The notes under the pieces were generated by a model, which saw nothing but the letters and a program-made list of their open reading frames with translations, was not told the DNA's origin and ran no database searches. A stretch of 50,607 bases of DNA, taken from the NCBI GenBank assembly GCA_030529365.1, contig JAUMXB010000018.1:1-50607 (forward strand). Direction: 5' to 3'. Origin of the DNA: Cardiobacteriaceae bacterium. Lineage in GTDB: Bacteria; Pseudomonadota; Gammaproteobacteria; Cardiobacteriales; Cardiobacteriaceae. Shown piece by piece: positions 28,467 to 50,607 of the stretch (position 1 is its first letter; every line of letters starts with the position of its first letter). The translations under genes and the position numbers were made by a program.

Positions 28467-28553
28467 GCCCAGATGGCGGAACTGGTAGACGCGCTAGGTT
28501 CAGGTCCTAGTGGGAGCAATCCCTTGGAGGTTCGAGTCCTCTTCTGGGCACCA
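28467..28553 (+). tRNA. tRNA-Leu (anticodon CAG)
   Basis: An 87-base class II tRNA: acceptor GCCCAGA/TCTGGGC, anticodon stem CTAGG/CCTAG around loop TTCAGGT, a long variable arm (TGGGAGCAATCCCTT), T arm GGTTCGAGTCC, encoded CCA. It is the last chromosomal gene before the conjugative block; such tRNA 3' ends are common integration targets. Confidence 0.96.
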
Positions 28554-35399: not shown

Positions 35400-35956
35400 A
35401 GGTCACTCCAAAGGATGAACGGGCGGACGATGCCGCGCACGTTGGCAAGCGGGATCGCGCCGTAATAGCGGCTGTCCCAGGAAAAGGGGTGATGCCCGGA
35501 GATCACCCACACCGTCCCGTCGGCGACCACGCCAGTGGCGGCCGGTTCGGGCATGGCACGATGAAGGCCGTCTTCGGCCATGCGGCGGCTGTTGGCAATA
35601 CGCTCGCCGTTGACGCTCACGCCGCCGTCATCGATGGCGACGACATCGCCCGGCAGTGCCACGACCGGTTTCATCAGCGGCCGCAAATACAGCTCGCAGC
35701 CGGTATCGGGAAAGGGGGTGTCCACATAGCCCCGGCTTTTGCTGAGGCTTGCCGCCTCTCCAGACAGGCAAAAGCGGACAATATCGCCACGGCGGATGCC
35801 GTCCGCGCCGTCGCGGATCTGGCGGTAAATGCCTCGCGGCAGGGAATCGCTGGTATTGAGATGCAGGTTGAACAACGGGAAACAGGTCATCAGGGCAATG
35901 CCGAGCACGCCAAGGGCGATCAGGCTGTTCAGCAGATAACGCAAGACCCTTTTCAT
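35396..35956 (-). CDS. traF: TraF, pilin-maturing S26-type peptidase
   Basis: A 186-residue signal peptidase-like protein with one N-terminal membrane helix (about 8-28). The serine motif is NTSDSLPRGIY and the basic residue MKPVVALPGDVV, as in the RP4 TraF family; a third conserved box is SWDSRYYGAI. RP4 TraF removes the C-terminus of TrbC and cyclises it, so here it would mature the TrbC at 42494. It overlaps both traG and topB by four bases. Confidence 0.92.
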   Translation of the reverse strand: MKRVLRYLLNSLIALGVLGIALMTCFPLFNLHLNTSDSLPRGIYRQIRDGADGIRRGDIVRFCLSGEAASLSKSRGYVDTPFPDTGCELYLRPLMKPVVALPGDVVAIDDGGVSVNGERIANSRRMAEDGLHRAMPEPAATGVVADGTVWVISGHHPFSWDSRYYGAIPLANVRGIVRPFILWSDL

Positions 35957-37773
35957 AGCGCAAACTCCCGTGAACGATGGCCGCCAAGACGGTCGCTCCT
36001 CGCAGGTGCAGGCACTTGCGCACGCGCCAGGAAAGTCTTGTCGTTGAAGTAGAGAATCTGGGTGCCGAGAATGGGCGCGTAGCCGGCGGCGAACACCATC
36101 AGCTGCCCGGCATCGACGATGCGCTCGTTGTCGCCGGTGCCGCTCTTCACCGGTTTCTTGAGACGCATGACTTCATCGGCGGTGATCAGCGGCCGCTGAT
36201 GCTCGCGGAAGGTCTTGTTGTAATGCCTGGCCGCGCCACCAAAGCGTGAACCGGACACGCTTACTTCTTCCTTGATGATGGTGGCGGTGCCGCTCATCTT
36301 GGAGAATATCTCTGCCGTTTCGATCTTGTTGGGCGCATAGCCGACACGGATATGGCTGTTGGCGATGATTTTCTCGTCGCGGCCGTAAATGCCGTTCAGC
36401 TGCTGGATGTCCTGGCAGATGAGATAGGCTTTCAGACCGTAACCGGCCATGAAGGCGAGACCGTCTTCGACCATGGCGAGTTTTTTCAAAGCGGGGAACT
36501 CGTCGAGCATCAGGAGCAGGCGATGCTGGTAATGTTTGACCGAACGGCCGCCGACAAACTCCATCTTCTCGGTGAGCCGACGGATGATCTGGGTGATCAG
36601 GAGGCGTATCAGTGGCCGGATGCGGTCGGCATCCGATGGCCGGTCCACGATATAGAGGGACAGCGGCTTGTCGTGGTGCATCAGGTCCTCGATCCTGAAG
36701 TCGCTCGATGCGGTGCGTCTGGCCACAATGGGATCGCGGTAAAGCGACAGGTTGGCGAGTGCCGTGGATACCACCGACGACATTTCTTCTTCGGCCTTGT
36801 TGAGCATGGCGCGCGCCTCGGCCGCTACCACCGGATGCGGCCCCTGCGGGGTATGCGGATACTCCAGCATTTCCTGCAAGACATCGGTTATGGGCATATC
36901 GGGGTTGGCCAGCATGGTTGCGACATCGGCAAGACTTGCCGTGCGCCCTTCTTCCTGGCGTGTCTTGTAGAGGGTGTGCAGGATGGTGCCGGTCAGCAGG
37001 GCAAAGCTGGTCTTGTCCCAATGCGTTTCCAGCCCCTTGCCCTGGGGATCGACAATCATGGTGGCGATGTTCTGCACATCACCGACAGCGCGCTCTTCAT
37101 CGAGCCGCACCGCATCGAGCGGGTTGTAGCAGCAGCTGTCCACCTCGGGATTGCCGGGATCGAAATTGAGCACCACGTTGGCGGCATACTGTTGCCGCCA
37201 ACCGGCGGTCAACGCCCAGTTCTCGCCCTTGATGTCGTAGATCAGCGCCGATTCCGTCCAGGTGAGCAGCGTCGGCAATACCAGCCCCACCCCCTTGCCG
37301 GAACGGGTCGGCGCAAAGGCGATGATATGCTCCGGGCCATCATGGCGCAGATAATGGACCTTGCCGCGCTCGTCCTGCCAGGCCCCGACATAGACGCCGT
37401 GGTTGCCGAGCAGTCCGGCTTCCTCGATCTCCTGGCGTTCTGCCCAATGCGCCGAACCGTGCAAATCGGCGATGGCCGAACTGTCGCGCTTCTTGAGAGT
37501 GGCTTGCAGGATCAGCCACATCATGCCCACGCCAATGACGGCAGCAAATACCGCCAGACCGGCCGTGACGGTTTTCTGGTGACTGTCATAAAAGCGCACC
37601 AGCCATACCAGCCAGTCCCAGGGCGCATACCAATGCCCGTACAACGGTTTGCCGAGCGCGGCGTGATAGCGGAATTTCCACGCCATCACCTGGGTGGCGG
37701 CGACGCTGGCGATGACCAGCACAAAGAGCAGGGCCGTGATTTTTTTGCCCGCGCTCATGGGTTTCCTTGTCAT
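35953..37773 (-). CDS. traG: TraG/VirD4 type IV coupling protein
   Basis: A 606-residue inner-membrane ATPase. Two N-terminal membrane helices (about 12-31 and 68-92) are followed by Walker A APTRSGKGVG (near 154-163), DIKGEN and Walker B LLLMLDEFPAL. It links the TraI-DNA complex to the Trb channel. I start at ATG 37771-37773, overlapping the traI stop (ATGA); the longer frame reaches into traI. Confidence 0.96.
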   Translation of the reverse strand: MTRKPMSAGKKITALLFVLVIASVAATQVMAWKFRYHAALGKPLYGHWYAPWDWLVWLVRFYDSHQKTVTAGLAVFAAVIGVGMMWLILQATLKKRDSSAIADLHGSAHWAERQEIEEAGLLGNHGVYVGAWQDERGKVHYLRHDGPEHIIAFAPTRSGKGVGLVLPTLLTWTESALIYDIKGENWALTAGWRQQYAANVVLNFDPGNPEVDSCCYNPLDAVRLDEERAVGDVQNIATMIVDPQGKGLETHWDKTSFALLTGTILHTLYKTRQEEGRTASLADVATMLANPDMPITDVLQEMLEYPHTPQGPHPVVAAEARAMLNKAEEEMSSVVSTALANLSLYRDPIVARRTASSDFRIEDLMHHDKPLSLYIVDRPSDADRIRPLIRLLITQIIRRLTEKMEFVGGRSVKHYQHRLLLMLDEFPALKKLAMVEDGLAFMAGYGLKAYLICQDIQQLNGIYGRDEKIIANSHIRVGYAPNKIETAEIFSKMSGTATIIKEEVSVSGSRFGGAARHYNKTFREHQRPLITADEVMRLKKPVKSGTGDNERIVDAGQLMVFAAGYAPILGTQILYFNDKTFLARAQVPAPARSDRLGGHRSREFAL

Positions 37774-39350
37774 GATCGACTCCTGGATTTTTTCGGGAAT
37801 TGCAAATAACCGTGCGCCCTGACCTGCACGCTGTCGCCTCTCTTGCCCTGCTGGGCGAGCAAGGCTTGCTGTTTGGCGGATACCGGCATGACCCACATCA
37901 CGCCGTCCCTTTCCAGCAAGGCGACGGCAAGGTCGGCATCAAGGCGGCGGTGGCCGCGATAGATGAACTCGCCCTGTCGGCCGTCGAGTGCGCGATGCTC
38001 GATCACGTCGCGCGCCTTGCCGACCAGGGCATTGCGCGACGCGATCCATGCAGCAAGACGTGCATCGGGAGAGGGTTTGCTGTTGGCAGCAAGTGCCTGA
38101 CGCAGCGCTTGCTGCTGATCGTCGCCAAGCCTTGCCATGACGGCCGCCATACCGCGCCGCTGCCCTTGGCGGGTGAGTTTGGCCAGCGCCCCGGCATCGC
38201 CGGCAACGGCCTTCGCCACCAGAAACGCTTGCCAGGTCGGCAGCGGCTGCTGCACGGTGAGGAGCTGCCGTTCCTGCCGATAGCGGTTTTGCAGTTTTTG
38301 CCTGTCGCTGGCTCTGGCCTTGGCCAGCTTTTGGTAGAGCGCGGCCTTTTGCCGCTTGTTGAGCAGCGCATCGCGCCTGATCTCCTCGCGAAGCGCCGCG
38401 TATTGGTTGCGCATGCCGCGCACTTCGCGCTCGCGCATCGTGCTGATCTCGGCACGGCGTTCCCGCCGCGCGGCCATGGCCGCATGACGCTCGCGCTGAT
38501 ATTCCGTCCACAACGCATCCGCTGCTGCCGGTTGATAGGTGGACTGCACGTCCAGCGGCGAGGTTGACGCGGGTGGCATCCATGCTCCGAAACGCTCTTG
38601 CAGGGCCTCGCTGCTGGCGAAGTCTGCGCCAAGGAGTGCGGCACGAACAAAAACCGCCTTGCCGTCTTCCTGTCGTGCCGCGAGCACCATGCCCTGCTCC
38701 ACAGGCTGGATGGTGAGACCGAAACGGTTGAGCGCCTGATGCAGCTCGTCCCAAGACGCGGGCGATGACAGGGCGATGGCAGGACGCACGTCTTCGATCA
38801 CATAGCGCTCCAGCGAGACCTGGCCGCTGTAGGCTTCCATGTCGCGCGCCGCCTGGCTGAGCGAATGCGGGTCATCCATGTGGTTGTCCACGACAAGGCC
38901 CAGTTCCTGTTCCAGGGCAGCGCATACCCTGGCCAGGCGACGATGCGAGTAATAGGGCGTGATCTGGCGCAAGGACACGGGATGCACGCGGTTGATGGCA
39001 AGGTGCAGATGGGGATGTTCGGTATCGGTATGCAGCACGGAGACACGCTGATGCCCGGCAAAGCCCAGCGCCTCGCAACAGGTGGCTTCGATGCGGGCGA
39101 GACGTGCCGGACTCAGATCATCTTCCGGGTGGAAGGACAGCACCAGATGATAGGTCTTGTCGTACCCCGCACGCGCCATCTCCTGGGTGGCAGTCACCAC
39201 CTTGACCACCGACGCCACGTCATCGAAGCTGCAATTGCTGATGGTGGCCGGCAGCGGCTCGCCGAGATGGGCGCGGGTGATGTAGTCCACCAGACGCTTG
39301 AAACTGGCCTGCTGCCCCCTGGCCTTCTTGGGGATCTCCTTGGCGATCAC
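37770..39350 (-). CDS. traI: MOBP-type relaxase TraI
   Basis: A 526-residue relaxase. The catalytic Tyr is probably Y23 (RLVDYIT) and the metal site is HTDTEHPHLHLAIN (H107, D109, H114, H116, N120), the MOBP pattern shared with RP4 TraI. An Arg/Gln/Ala-rich helical stretch covers about 280-370 and the tail is basic (KKSRSRS). It nicks the adjacent oriT and stays on the 5' end. The start is GTG 39348-39350, directly abutting the traJ stop. It is shorter than RP4 TraI (732 residues) and has no primase or helicase domain. Confidence 0.94.
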   Translation of the reverse strand: MIAKEIPKKARGQQASFKRLVDYITRAHLGEPLPATISNCSFDDVASVVKVVTATQEMARAGYDKTYHLVLSFHPEDDLSPARLARIEATCCEALGFAGHQRVSVLHTDTEHPHLHLAINRVHPVSLRQITPYYSHRRLARVCAALEQELGLVVDNHMDDPHSLSQAARDMEAYSGQVSLERYVIEDVRPAIALSSPASWDELHQALNRFGLTIQPVEQGMVLAARQEDGKAVFVRAALLGADFASSEALQERFGAWMPPASTSPLDVQSTYQPAAADALWTEYQRERHAAMAARRERRAEISTMREREVRGMRNQYAALREEIRRDALLNKRQKAALYQKLAKARASDRQKLQNRYRQERQLLTVQQPLPTWQAFLVAKAVAGDAGALAKLTRQGQRRGMAAVMARLGDDQQQALRQALAANSKPSPDARLAAWIASRNALVGKARDVIEHRALDGRQGEFIYRGHRRLDADLAVALLERDGVMWVMPVSAKQQALLAQQGKRGDSVQVRAHGYLQFPKKSRSRS

Positions 39351-39677
39351 TTATTGCCCCAATTGGGCGATCAGGACATGAATGGCGGATTTGAGGTCGT
39401 TCAATTCATGCAGCAATTCGCGCACATTGAGATGCTGATGCAAATACGCATCTTCATCGCGTGACAACCACAATTTGAGCAATCCACCCACCCGGCCAAT
39501 ATCGCCATGCAAATGCGACAACGCCAATAAAGCCTGCTGATCCATTTTGGAGCGGGGAACAATGCCCAATGCCGTTTGACGAATATAGGCACTGCGAGTT
39601 AGGCAACAGGCATGCGCTTTTTGCTCAATTGTCTTTTTCTCTTCTTCAGACAAACGCAATGAAACAAATTTGGCCAT
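39351..39677 (-). CDS. traJ: TraJ/MobC-like relaxosome accessory protein
   Basis: A 108-residue protein with an N-terminal ribbon-helix-helix-like segment (FVSLRLSEEEKKTIEQKA...SAYIRQTALG) and a helical C-terminus. In RP4, TraJ binds an inverted repeat beside nic and recruits TraI. The gene starts 13 bases from the oriT repeats, with AAGGAT before the ATG. Confidence 0.85.
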   Translation of the reverse strand: MAKFVSLRLSEEEKKTIEQKAHACCLTRSAYIRQTALGIVPRSKMDQQALLALSHLHGDIGRVGGLLKLWLSRDEDAYLHQHLNVRELLHELNDLKSAIHVLIAQLGQ

Positions 39678-39689
39678 GAATATCCTTTT

Positions 39690-39807
39690 GACGTAATGGA
39701 AACGACGCGGCAGCGTCGAAATTGCCTCGCAGAGCAGGATAGGTGGTTGTGGAGAGCTGCTTGCAGCGTGTCACAACTACACATCCTGCCTTCTGGCACA
39801 TTACGTC
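39690..39807. other. oriT: Origin of transfer (oriT) with RP4-like nic site
   Basis: On the minus strand CACCTATCCTG-C (39734-39743) matches the RP4 nic consensus; the cut is expected between 39735 and 39734. Outer arms GACGTAATG (39690-39698) and CATTACGTC (39799-39807) are perfect. Inside are a GACGC/GCGTC hairpin (39704-39717) and a large imperfect inverted repeat (39735-39787) made of CAGGAT, GTTGTG, GCTGC and their complements. A second ATCCTGC lies on the plus strand at 39782-39788. Position between traJ and traK is the same as in RP4. The AT-rich 39808-40051 probably holds the divergent promoters; TATGAT at 40016-40021 is a weak -10 candidate for traK. Confidence 0.88.
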
Positions 39808-40051
39808 GAATTGGCATTGAATGGACAAAAATGAAAATTATTGCAAAACCATGATAATTGACACCAAAGAATGCAATGCAATGTCAATGGAAAATGAGAA
39901 ACAGAGACAATAATGAAGAAGAATGAAAAGAGGTGACAGAGATTGAAATTTGTAGGCTGACAAGGTCATTTGTCGTCATGTTTGAGCATGGCTTCGTGAA
40001 TTGCCGACAAGCCTCTATGATCAGGCTGTCCTTTGAAAGTGTGAGGAAAAC

Positions 40052-40354
40052 ATGAAACGCCTTGAATATGGATTTGCAAGATCATTTGTGGCGCAGCACA
40101 AGAATTACATTGAGCAGGAGATGAAAAAGCTCAGAACCGTGAAATCTATCTGGAAAGAATTGCAAAGCAATGCAAAAGACAAAATATCCTATCGAATATT
40201 TGTCTATCATGTTTCCAACCAGATTGCCAAAAATCTTCCCCTGCAATACTACATCGACAGGAAAGACACGAAAAAGAAACCGGAAAGACATGACAGAAGC
40301 ATTTCCCATGCATTCGAATTCACGACACAGGTCAATTCGGAGGAAATCATCTGA
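40052..40354 (+). CDS. traK: TraK-like oriT-binding protein
   Basis: A 100-residue, Lys-rich basic protein. The central KSIWKELQSN...ISYRIFVYHVSNQI resembles the DNA-binding core of TraK-family proteins, which wrap oriT and help relaxosome assembly. Position supports this: first gene rightward from oriT, followed by traL and traM. TGAGGA precedes the ATG and its stop overlaps the traL start. Confidence 0.7.
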   Translation: MKRLEYGFARSFVAQHKNYIEQEMKKLRTVKSIWKELQSNAKDKISYRIFVYHVSNQIAKNLPLQYYIDRKDTKKKPERHDRSISHAFEFTTQVNSEEII

Positions 40355-41106
40355 TGTCTCATATTCATTTCATCTTGCAGGGCAAGGGTGGCGTCGGCAA
40401 AAGCCTGATTGCCGCCCTGATGACGCAATACCAGTTGCATGAAGGTATTCCCACCATTGCGGTGGATACCGATCCGGTCAATGCCTCTCTCGCCGCTTAC
40501 AGCGCCTTTCCGACCCGGCGCATCGAGCTGTTGGACAAACACCAAAACCTGAAACCGCGCGAGTTCGATACCCTGATGGAAATGATTGTCGCCCACCCGG
40601 ACGAGGCATTTGTCATCGACAACGGCGCATCGAGTTTTCTGCCGCTGTCCGGCTATCTCGTCGAGAACGACGTGATGGCCATGCTGCAAGGCATGGGCCG
40701 CCAGGTCATCGTTCATACCGTGGTGACTGGCGGACAGGCGATGATGGATACCCTGCATGGGCTCGCCGCGCTCGGCAAAAACATGCAGGTGCCGCTTGCC
40801 ATCTGGATCAACGGCTACTTCGGCGAAGTGGTGGCGGATGGCAAGCGCTTCGAGCAAATGAAAGTCTATGAATCGCTGAAAAGGCAGATTGTCGCGGTGA
40901 TGCGCATCGACAAGATGTCGCCGCTCTTTGAAGACGATTTCCGCACCTTGCTGGAACGGCATCTGACCTTTGAGCAGGCCCTGCAAGATGACAGCTTCAA
41001 CCTCATGGCGCGCAATCGTCTCAAGATGATTCGCGACAACCTCTTTGCCCAGCTGGGGCATTTGAGAGCAGCCATTGCCATGGATGGCAGCCATGCTGAA
41101 ACGTGA
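40354..41106 (+). CDS. traL: TraL, ParA-like P-loop ATPase
   Basis: A 250-residue protein with the deviant Walker A QGKGGVGKSLIAAL near the N-terminus and VDTDPVN (A' motif), and FVIDNGAS as Walker B. RP4 TraL belongs to this ParA/MinD group; its role in transfer is auxiliary. The start overlaps the traK stop by one base. Confidence 0.87.
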   Translation: MSHIHFILQGKGGVGKSLIAALMTQYQLHEGIPTIAVDTDPVNASLAAYSAFPTRRIELLDKHQNLKPREFDTLMEMIVAHPDEAFVIDNGASSFLPLSGYLVENDVMAMLQGMGRQVIVHTVVTGGQAMMDTLHGLAALGKNMQVPLAIWINGYFGEVVADGKRFEQMKVYESLKRQIVAVMRIDKMSPLFEDDFRTLLERHLTFEQALQDDSFNLMARNRLKMIRDNLFAQLGHLRAAIAMDGSHAET

Positions 41107-49928: not shown

Positions 49929-50607
49929 GCGGCGTCCTCGATCCCGGCAGCTCTCCCCAGGGCAACAGCGGCACTGTGCGCCGCCTGAACAAGCTGCCGA
50001 TGATCATTGCCTTTGCGGTGATGTGCGTGGTGGTCTTCGGTATCGTCTATGCGCTGTACGCGCGCAGCAAGGTACGCGAATTGCAGGCGAGCCAGGCGGC
50101 CGCCGGCAGCATCAGCAACAACGCCATGGCCGACAAGCTCCTTGCCGGCGTTGGCGACGGCATTGCCGACAGCCATTCGGAAACCATCATCATCGACAAT
50201 ACCCAGCCCACCCCGGAATTGCCTCCAGCCGAAACAGTCCTGCCCACGGAAGTCATCGCCGAAGAGCAACCCAAGGAAGACGAAGAGGCCAGACGGATTG
50301 CCGGACTGGTACGGGAGTTTCGGGAACGGGGTTATTACGACGCCCTGGTCTCAAGCACTGCCGTTGCCGGCAAACCGGCCTATGGCGAAGGGCAGGACGA
50401 ACAAAAAGATCCCGCACAAAGTCTTGAACAAACCCGCTCTGCCCTGCAAGCGGCTGCCCTGGGCAAGGCGCTCGGTGGCCAGGGCATTGCTGCGCCCGGT
50501 CTGGACGGCATGGAAAGCCTGCTGGGGGAACGTGATCCCAATCTGCGCCTGCGCAAGGCCGCCTTTGCCGAAACCGACAATCCTTACGGCTACCGGCTCT
50601 CCGTGCG
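49925..50607 (+). CDS. trbI: TrbI, VirB10-like protein (partial, runs off the window)
   Basis: The first 227 residues are present and no stop occurs before the end. It starts MSGVLDPGSSPQG, has a cytoplasmic basic stretch (RRLNKLP), one membrane helix (about 25-45), and a long Pro/Glu-rich periplasmic linker (PTPELPPAETVLPTE). The C-terminal beta-barrel that spans the outer membrane lies outside the window. The ATG overlaps the trbH stop. Confidence 0.9.
   Translation, partial: MSGVLDPGSSPQGNSGTVRRLNKLPMIIAFAVMCVVVFGIVYALYARSKVRELQASQAAAGSISNNAMADKLLAGVGDGIADSHSETIIIDNTQPTPELPPAETVLPTEVIAEEQPKEDEEARRIAGLVREFRERGYYDALVSSTAVAGKPAYGEGQDEQKDPAQSLEQTRSALQAAALGKALGGQGIAAPGLDGMESLLGERDPNLRLRKAAFAETDNPYGYRLSV

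Follow-up and report, generated by a model that had tools for sequence, protein, structure and literature searches.

The oriT of RP4 is a standard laboratory and vector transfer origin, and its traJ-side half is regarded either as part of a leader or as an RNA motif that lacks an explanation. In RP4/RK2 (IncP-1, MOBP11; represented here by pRT801), the nic site ATCCTG^C adjoins an inverted repeat and has an opposed partner, ATCCTGC-CTCTGCGAGGC, on the traJ side, the whole being placed between traK and traJ in one account of the system (PMC7314908). The locus described below shares these parts; unlike it, RP4 has a hairpin, CTTATTCGC...GCTCAACG, between the repeat and the partner, and the RP4 partner lacks CAC. 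The corresponding Rfam family, traJ-II (RF01760), was listed as a certain, cis-regulatory RNA by Weinberg et al. (PMC2864571); since the traJ-II of RK2/RP4 has been stated to correspond to oriT (PMC6206304), that identity was already known. Like our locus, traJ-II lies upstream of traJ and comprises an outer stem of nic and partner, an inner hairpin and a CTCTGCGAGGC tail, whereas the middle hairpin of the model is missing in our locus. Two further systems are informative. The VirD2 oriT of the Helicobacter pylori tfs4 element is likewise chromosomal, with an inverted repeat next to its TATCCTGC nick motif, but there the repeat lies 5' to the nick motif, and the passages describing it mention no inverted partner (PMC3772185). 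In the pMV158 oriT (MOBV, MobM), alternative hairpins cover or expose the nick, similarly to what we propose here, the nick-covered hairpin being described as the off state; however, its relaxase family and sequence are different, and the switch was footprinted there and is only proposed here (PMC5863519). For R64/R1162, the same source reports that termination needs the whole repeat (PMC5863519).

The dyad and its gene neighbourhood

The window, i.e., the whole 50,607-nt stretch of DNA analysed, carries the following features:

35953-37896, minus strand: traG
37770..39350, minus strand: traI, MOBP relaxase of 526 aa (Pfam Relaxase)
39351..39677, minus strand: traJ, NikA/TraJ-like DNA-binding protein of 108 aa (Pfam NikA-like, 61 bits)
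39703..39718, minus strand: hairpin CGACGC-TGCC-GCGTCG, between oriT and traJ
39723..39791, minus strand: traJ-II (RF01760)-like element made up of an outer stem, an inner hairpin and a CTCTGCGAGGC tail; cmscan gave 32.8 bits (E 2.9e-4), under the gathering cut-off of 40
39726..39734, minus strand: small palindrome CTC-TGC-GAG, adjoining the partner motif
39734..39745, minus strand: putative partner (mirror) motif CACCTATCCTGC, a complete nic consensus, homologue of the traJ-side second motif
39743..39780, no strand: inner inverted repeat (arms GTTGTG/CACAAC and GCTGC/GCAGC), aligned to the traJ-II inner hairpin; probably the TraJ-binding repeat, as in RP4
39783..39789, plus strand: candidate nic core ATCCTG^C, homologue of the nic found on the traK side in relatives and in the RP4-type oriT
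40052..40354, plus strand: 100-aa ORF at the position of traK in relatives
40354..41106, plus strand: traL-like ParA/ArsA-type ATPase (NCBIfam TraL, 265 bits; cut-off 360)

The sequence-only reading had described an oriT at 39734-39788 in which two inverted ATCCTGC motifs, 42 bases apart on opposite strands, close one large dyad, and had offered three roles for it: the TraJ-binding repeat, a termination hairpin or a second nicking site in the other direction. The two motifs are indeed there (minus strand, 39734-39740; plus strand, 39783-39789), as are the arms between them, GTTGTG (39746-39751) pairing with CACAAC (39772-39777) and GCTGC (39756-39760) with GCAGC (39763-39767); the start of the dyad was right and its true end lies one base further, at 39789. 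A repeat search of the window returned it with 27-nt arms, 20/27 (74%) complementary, and a 2-nt gap. When the intergenic region (39678-40051) was dinucleotide-shuffled 100 times, the best 27-nt-arm dyad reached at most 18/27 (mean 15.3) and none of the shuffles matched the observed one, i.e., the dyad exceeds chance. The 7-mer ATCCTGC by itself says little: 9.1 copies would be expected in the window and 19 are present. For the fuller pattern YACNNATCYTGC, the expectation is 0.41 and the count three, two of these three being the dyad sites. Both strands carry the ATCCTG nick core, preceded by a flank that resembles that of nic (TACACATCCTGC on the plus strand, CACCTATCCTGC on the minus strand). 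The RP4-type oriT of pRT801 (MH192349.1) reads GCAGGATAGGTG, which is CACCTATCCTGC on the nicked strand, so the earlier remark that the minus-strand motif resembles the RP4 nic region holds at 12 of 12 positions.

The dyad lies directly upstream of the minus-strand traJ/traI/traG set and faces, on its other side, a plus-strand series consisting of the 100-aa ORF, traL, trbB, trbC, trbE, trbJ, trbL, trbF and trbG (trbB and trbE were named from Pfam T2SSE and CagE_TrbE_VirB matches together with gene order). TraI passes the NCBIfam TraI/MobA(P) model (325 bits, cut-off 250), and its Y23, H107, H114 and H116 are invariant in the alignment with relatives; TraJ scores 65 bits against the NCBIfam TraJ model, under the cut-off of 134, and the 100-aa ORF has no Pfam or NCBIfam match. 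Two features that characterize RP4-type oriTs are present, namely an inverted repeat beside nic and an adjoining traJ plus TraI-type MOBP relaxase facing the traK/traL set (traJ, traI and traL were found). These flanking genes, together with the traJ-II match, support the view that this is an oriT of the RP4 kind, and an integrated conjugative element of the RP4 type (MOBP, TraI/TraJ) almost certainly has its oriT core here. A tRNA-Leu(CAG) gene occupies 28467-28553, and the conjugation and associated genes start just past it. Since the conjugation genes extend from this tRNA gene as far as position 50607, where the contig ends, they probably belong to an integrated conjugative element; the tRNA-Leu(CAG) gene is then likely its attachment site, with the other end of the element past the contig. 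A search for a second att copy of the tRNA-Leu 3' end returned the gene itself alone.

The outer inverted pair TTTGACGTAATG/CATTACGTCGAA (39687-39698 and 39799-39810) flanks the whole dyad and possibly represents operator sites of the two divergent promoters. The repeat CATTACGTC has two exact copies around the dyad and, with one mismatch allowed, shows no excess in the window (8 vs. 6.8). Elsewhere in the host genome, a second CACCTATCCTGC (C27:90718-90729; L002 1501-1512) stands in a hairpin, CTTTGCGGGATGGG...CTATCCTGCAAAG, that adjoins a metallo-hydrolase-like ORF, a long way from any relaxase. Because the window's relaxase is the sole relaxase-family match in the host genome, we took this copy as chance.

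Order of parts and the missing middle hairpin

In seven plasmid relatives and the related genome loci, the parts follow one another, in traJ sense, as GGGCAGGAT (with nic on the opposite strand), the inverted repeat, the hairpin CTTATTCGC...GCTCAACG, in most of them ATCCTGC-CTCTGCGAGGC, and then traJ; RP4-type vector DNA shares this arrangement. The nic of these relatives is the traK-side motif of the inverted repeat, and CTCTGCGAGGC comes after the traJ-side motif. Reports on RP4 place the traJ transcript start 24 nt past nic and the TraJ-bound repeat 8 bp from nic (PMC7314908); therefore, nic is the traK-side motif there as well. Since the copy with CTCTGCGAGGC after it in the window is the minus-strand CACCTATCCTGC, this copy appears to be the homologue of the partner, and the plus-strand ATCCTG^C that of nic. 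Synteny and alignment thus make it likely that nic, and with it the nicked strand, is the plus-strand ATCCTG^C, and cleavage would probably occur between 39788 and 39789 of that strand.

The outer stem (nic and partner) and the inner hairpin of RF01760 could both be aligned in the window, but the 34 model positions of the middle hairpin are reduced to one base. The window falls outside RF01760 by score and, as judged by homology, is a divergent relative of it. The score exceeds the cut-off in 11 of 11 relatives and in five of six plasmid loci, and among 398 Pseudomonadota genomes, 11 had a match at E <= 0.001, nine of them over the cut-off. Counted between outer ends, nic and partner span 56 bp in the window and 62-97 bp (median 91) in relatives, in which the partner lies beyond the middle hairpin. 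In the window, a CACAAC arm immediately precedes each motif (CACAACTACACATCCTGC and CACAACCACCTATCCTGC), and the two are identical at 15 of 18 positions, compared with 6-13 of 18 in 69 relatives; CAC, present at the window's partner, occurs at the partner in none of those 69. It is because the middle hairpin is missing that both motifs carry a full nic consensus beside a repeat arm. The window holds an unusual, minimal form of the mirrored-nic oriT, a natural version that kept the partner and lost the middle hairpin, i.e., the reverse of the partner-less lineages (Legionella, some Nitrospira and others), which keep that hairpin; as elements were anchored on the middle hairpin, its presence in all relatives is partly by construction. 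The window's TraI forms the longest end branch of the 85-row relaxase tree (2.38), and therefore the layout may suit a divergent relaxase. The missing hairpin may also be a draft misassembly.

Smaller parts of the region also have counterparts. Where the window has the hairpin between oriT and traJ, relatives have similar hairpins with CTACCG/CTGCCG loops. The palindrome after the partner (alignment A2, columns 101-109) reads either CTC-TGC-GAG or CCC-TGC-GGG in relatives, the two sides changing jointly (T:A in 24 and C:G in four of 28 rows); it is broken in L063, L066, L069 and L081, which lie outside those 28 rows.

Joint variation of nic and partner

Across 93 distinct related elements (106 places; spurious places in L032, L052, L078 and L133 were removed after inspection), a TCYTG partner was found in 72 and none in 21; hence, the partner is dispensable in some lineages. 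Elements were present in 75 of 80 genome loci (72 in a first scan and three more in a second); L033, L035 and L093 include little upstream DNA, and L058 and L073 gave no element match. The mirrored nic is thus, on sequence grounds, a feature of the family, beyond the window alone. In the 72 elements with a partner, position -3 (nic/partner) was C/C in 63 and T/T in nine, with no mixed case, and position -6 was A/A in 58, A/C in four, A/T in three, G/G in five, G/A in one and G/T in one. By contrast with these, position +1 (C/C 67, T/C 2, C/T 2, C/A 1) is not coupled between nic and partner. A third coupled position, -5, is indicated by one locus outside the 93-element count, L136, with ACCCTG in both motifs. 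On the relaxase trees, -3 changes five times among 67 concordant rows (85-row tree) or six times among 73 (91-row tree), both motifs alike; these trees lack L131-L134 and L136, and an independent-pairs sign test gave p 0.125 and 0.0625, with too few pairs to reach 0.05. Among elements of the GTCCTG type, nic and partner agree at -6 in five of seven (L029, L037, L061, L133 and L152/L131; L132 and L134 do not). Full-text literature searches, the scope of which did not extend to the older RP4 literature, returned no paper on the joint change of nic and inverted partner, and passages on RP4 traJ in mobilisation located no mutations within the element.

GTCCTG nic cores occur in several settings. 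Plasmid and genome elements with this core were seen in L152 (1502-1610) and L131-L134, with a matching partner in L131, L133 and L152, not in L132 or L134. Three Vampirovibrio loci (L029, L037 and L061, near 2825-2940) are RP4-type oriTs in records of a non-proteobacterial lineage, with a GTCCTG core and a matching partner.

We propose that TraJ would bind the inner repeat and bring TraI to the plus-strand ATCCTG^C, the strand leaving from this nick carrying traL/trb first and traI/traJ last. On the transferred strand, GCAGGAT, the complement of the partner, would pair with nic and close a hairpin around the TraJ repeat, and this pairing could keep nic covered while the DNA is idle or, as a round of transfer finishes, restore a hairpin that can be recognised. 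In the window, where the middle hairpin is absent, these parts are fused into a single dyad whose two strands each bear a complete nic consensus. In single-strand DNA folding, the motifs pair around the inner hairpin in the window, in pRT801, in L152 and in L072. The gene context, the motif homologies, the joint variation of nic and partner and the absence of the middle hairpin are read directly from the sequences; a nic lock or a termination hairpin as the role of the outer ATCCTGC/GCAGGAT stem is offered tentatively, at somewhat under an even chance, and the explanation as a whole (RP4-type oriT, plus-strand nic, partner pairing) has about an even chance of being right.

The same joint change would be expected if the partner were a second relaxase site, with TraI docking on the opposite-strand ATCCTG so as to be available for the second cleavage at termination, or nicking it for reverse transfer. 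Cleavage in vitro by RP4 TraI and by VirD2 is reported to require the hexamer that is coupled here (PMC3772185), and RP4 TraI is described as having a single active tyrosine, its monomer being unable to perform a second cleavage (PMC7314908). That +1 is uncoupled and -3 never mixed also fits this idea, as does the complete consensus beside a CACAAC arm at both sites of the window. However, the partners of relatives lack the CAC of true nics, they stand away from the TraJ repeat, and nicks 44 bp apart on opposite strands would risk a double-strand break. We consider a second relaxase site the main rival, though less likely than not; it is more plausible for the window than for the 69 relatives, as the window's partner alone has the complete nic consensus. 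A broader form, in which RP4-type oriTs carry two opposed, co-evolving relaxase sites (a two-sided relaxosome) and the window's palindromic origin could be nicked on either strand, with transfer going either way or one site serving initiation and the other termination, has in our judgement a small chance of being true.

Pairing and recognition by one relaxase are hard to separate by sequence, since joint change fits both. The lack of +1 coupling and of wobble at -3 leans towards recognition, while the partners without CAC (0/69) and the documented nick-covering and termination hairpins favour pairing, which we place a little above recognition. Joint change at up to three positions ties the traJ-side half to the nicking reaction, and it offers a simple way to test how a relaxase with one tyrosine brings a round of transfer to an end.

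The minus-strand motif and the traJ leader

The minus-strand CACCTATCCTGC had been put forward as the nic, which is probably wrong. Its attraction is clear: besides matching the RP4-type nic in full, it fits the nic consensus CACNNATCCTG better (CAC) than the plus-strand site does (TAC), and the nics of relatives carry CAC in 59 of 69 and TAC in seven. But its place on the traJ side and the CTCTGCGAGGC that comes after it mark the partner in relatives, the traJ-II alignment puts nic at the opposite end, and transfer from it would move traJ/traI first, the reverse of RP4. We therefore regard it as improbable that this motif is the one true nic and the plus-strand copy its partner.

The weakest alternative, that the element is chiefly a structured leader of the traJ mRNA and the nic/partner stem an RNA stem controlling traJ, draws on the start of the RP4 traJ mRNA beyond nic (PMC7314908), which therefore puts the whole element within the leader, on the Rfam classification of traJ-II as a cis-regulatory RNA and on the good folding of the leader (z -3.4), but it is weakened by the few wobble pairs (G-T 5 and A-C 7, counted without a control family, with column pair 3-102 left out, as were L034 and L045 of alignment A2, in which MAFFT misplaced the partner), by the lack of a sense-strand preference (p 0.23, likewise without a control family), by a G-T state at -3 in 0/72 elements and by the stem including nic itself, which leaves it improbable. 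In our view, traJ-II has at least as good a claim to being a DNA element as to being an RNA.

In the collections searched, the window's single relaxase found no close relatives of the element among genome contigs and none in viral contigs, the plasmid relaxase matches were all below 60% identity with none covering 80%, and the window oriT DNA matched no plasmid. Within the host's order, the element occurred in one of 32 genomes, the window's own. A scan of 398 genomes for complete two-faced dyads likewise gave the window's own, with none in the 397 others. Two-faced dyads were also matched in seven viral contigs, mostly within long open frames and in L143 within short direct repeats; none was recognisable as an oriT, and the relaxase motif sought was in no listed ORF. 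In L143 (11134-11179), a contig of the viral collection, head-to-tail GTGCAGGATGT repeats end in an inverted copy, an arrangement more suggestive of a repeat-type binding site than of an oriT. The small Pseudomonas plasmid pGLE121P2, typed as non-mobilizable, carries two oppositely oriented nic-plus-hairpin elements without a partner (L155, near 802 and 1503).
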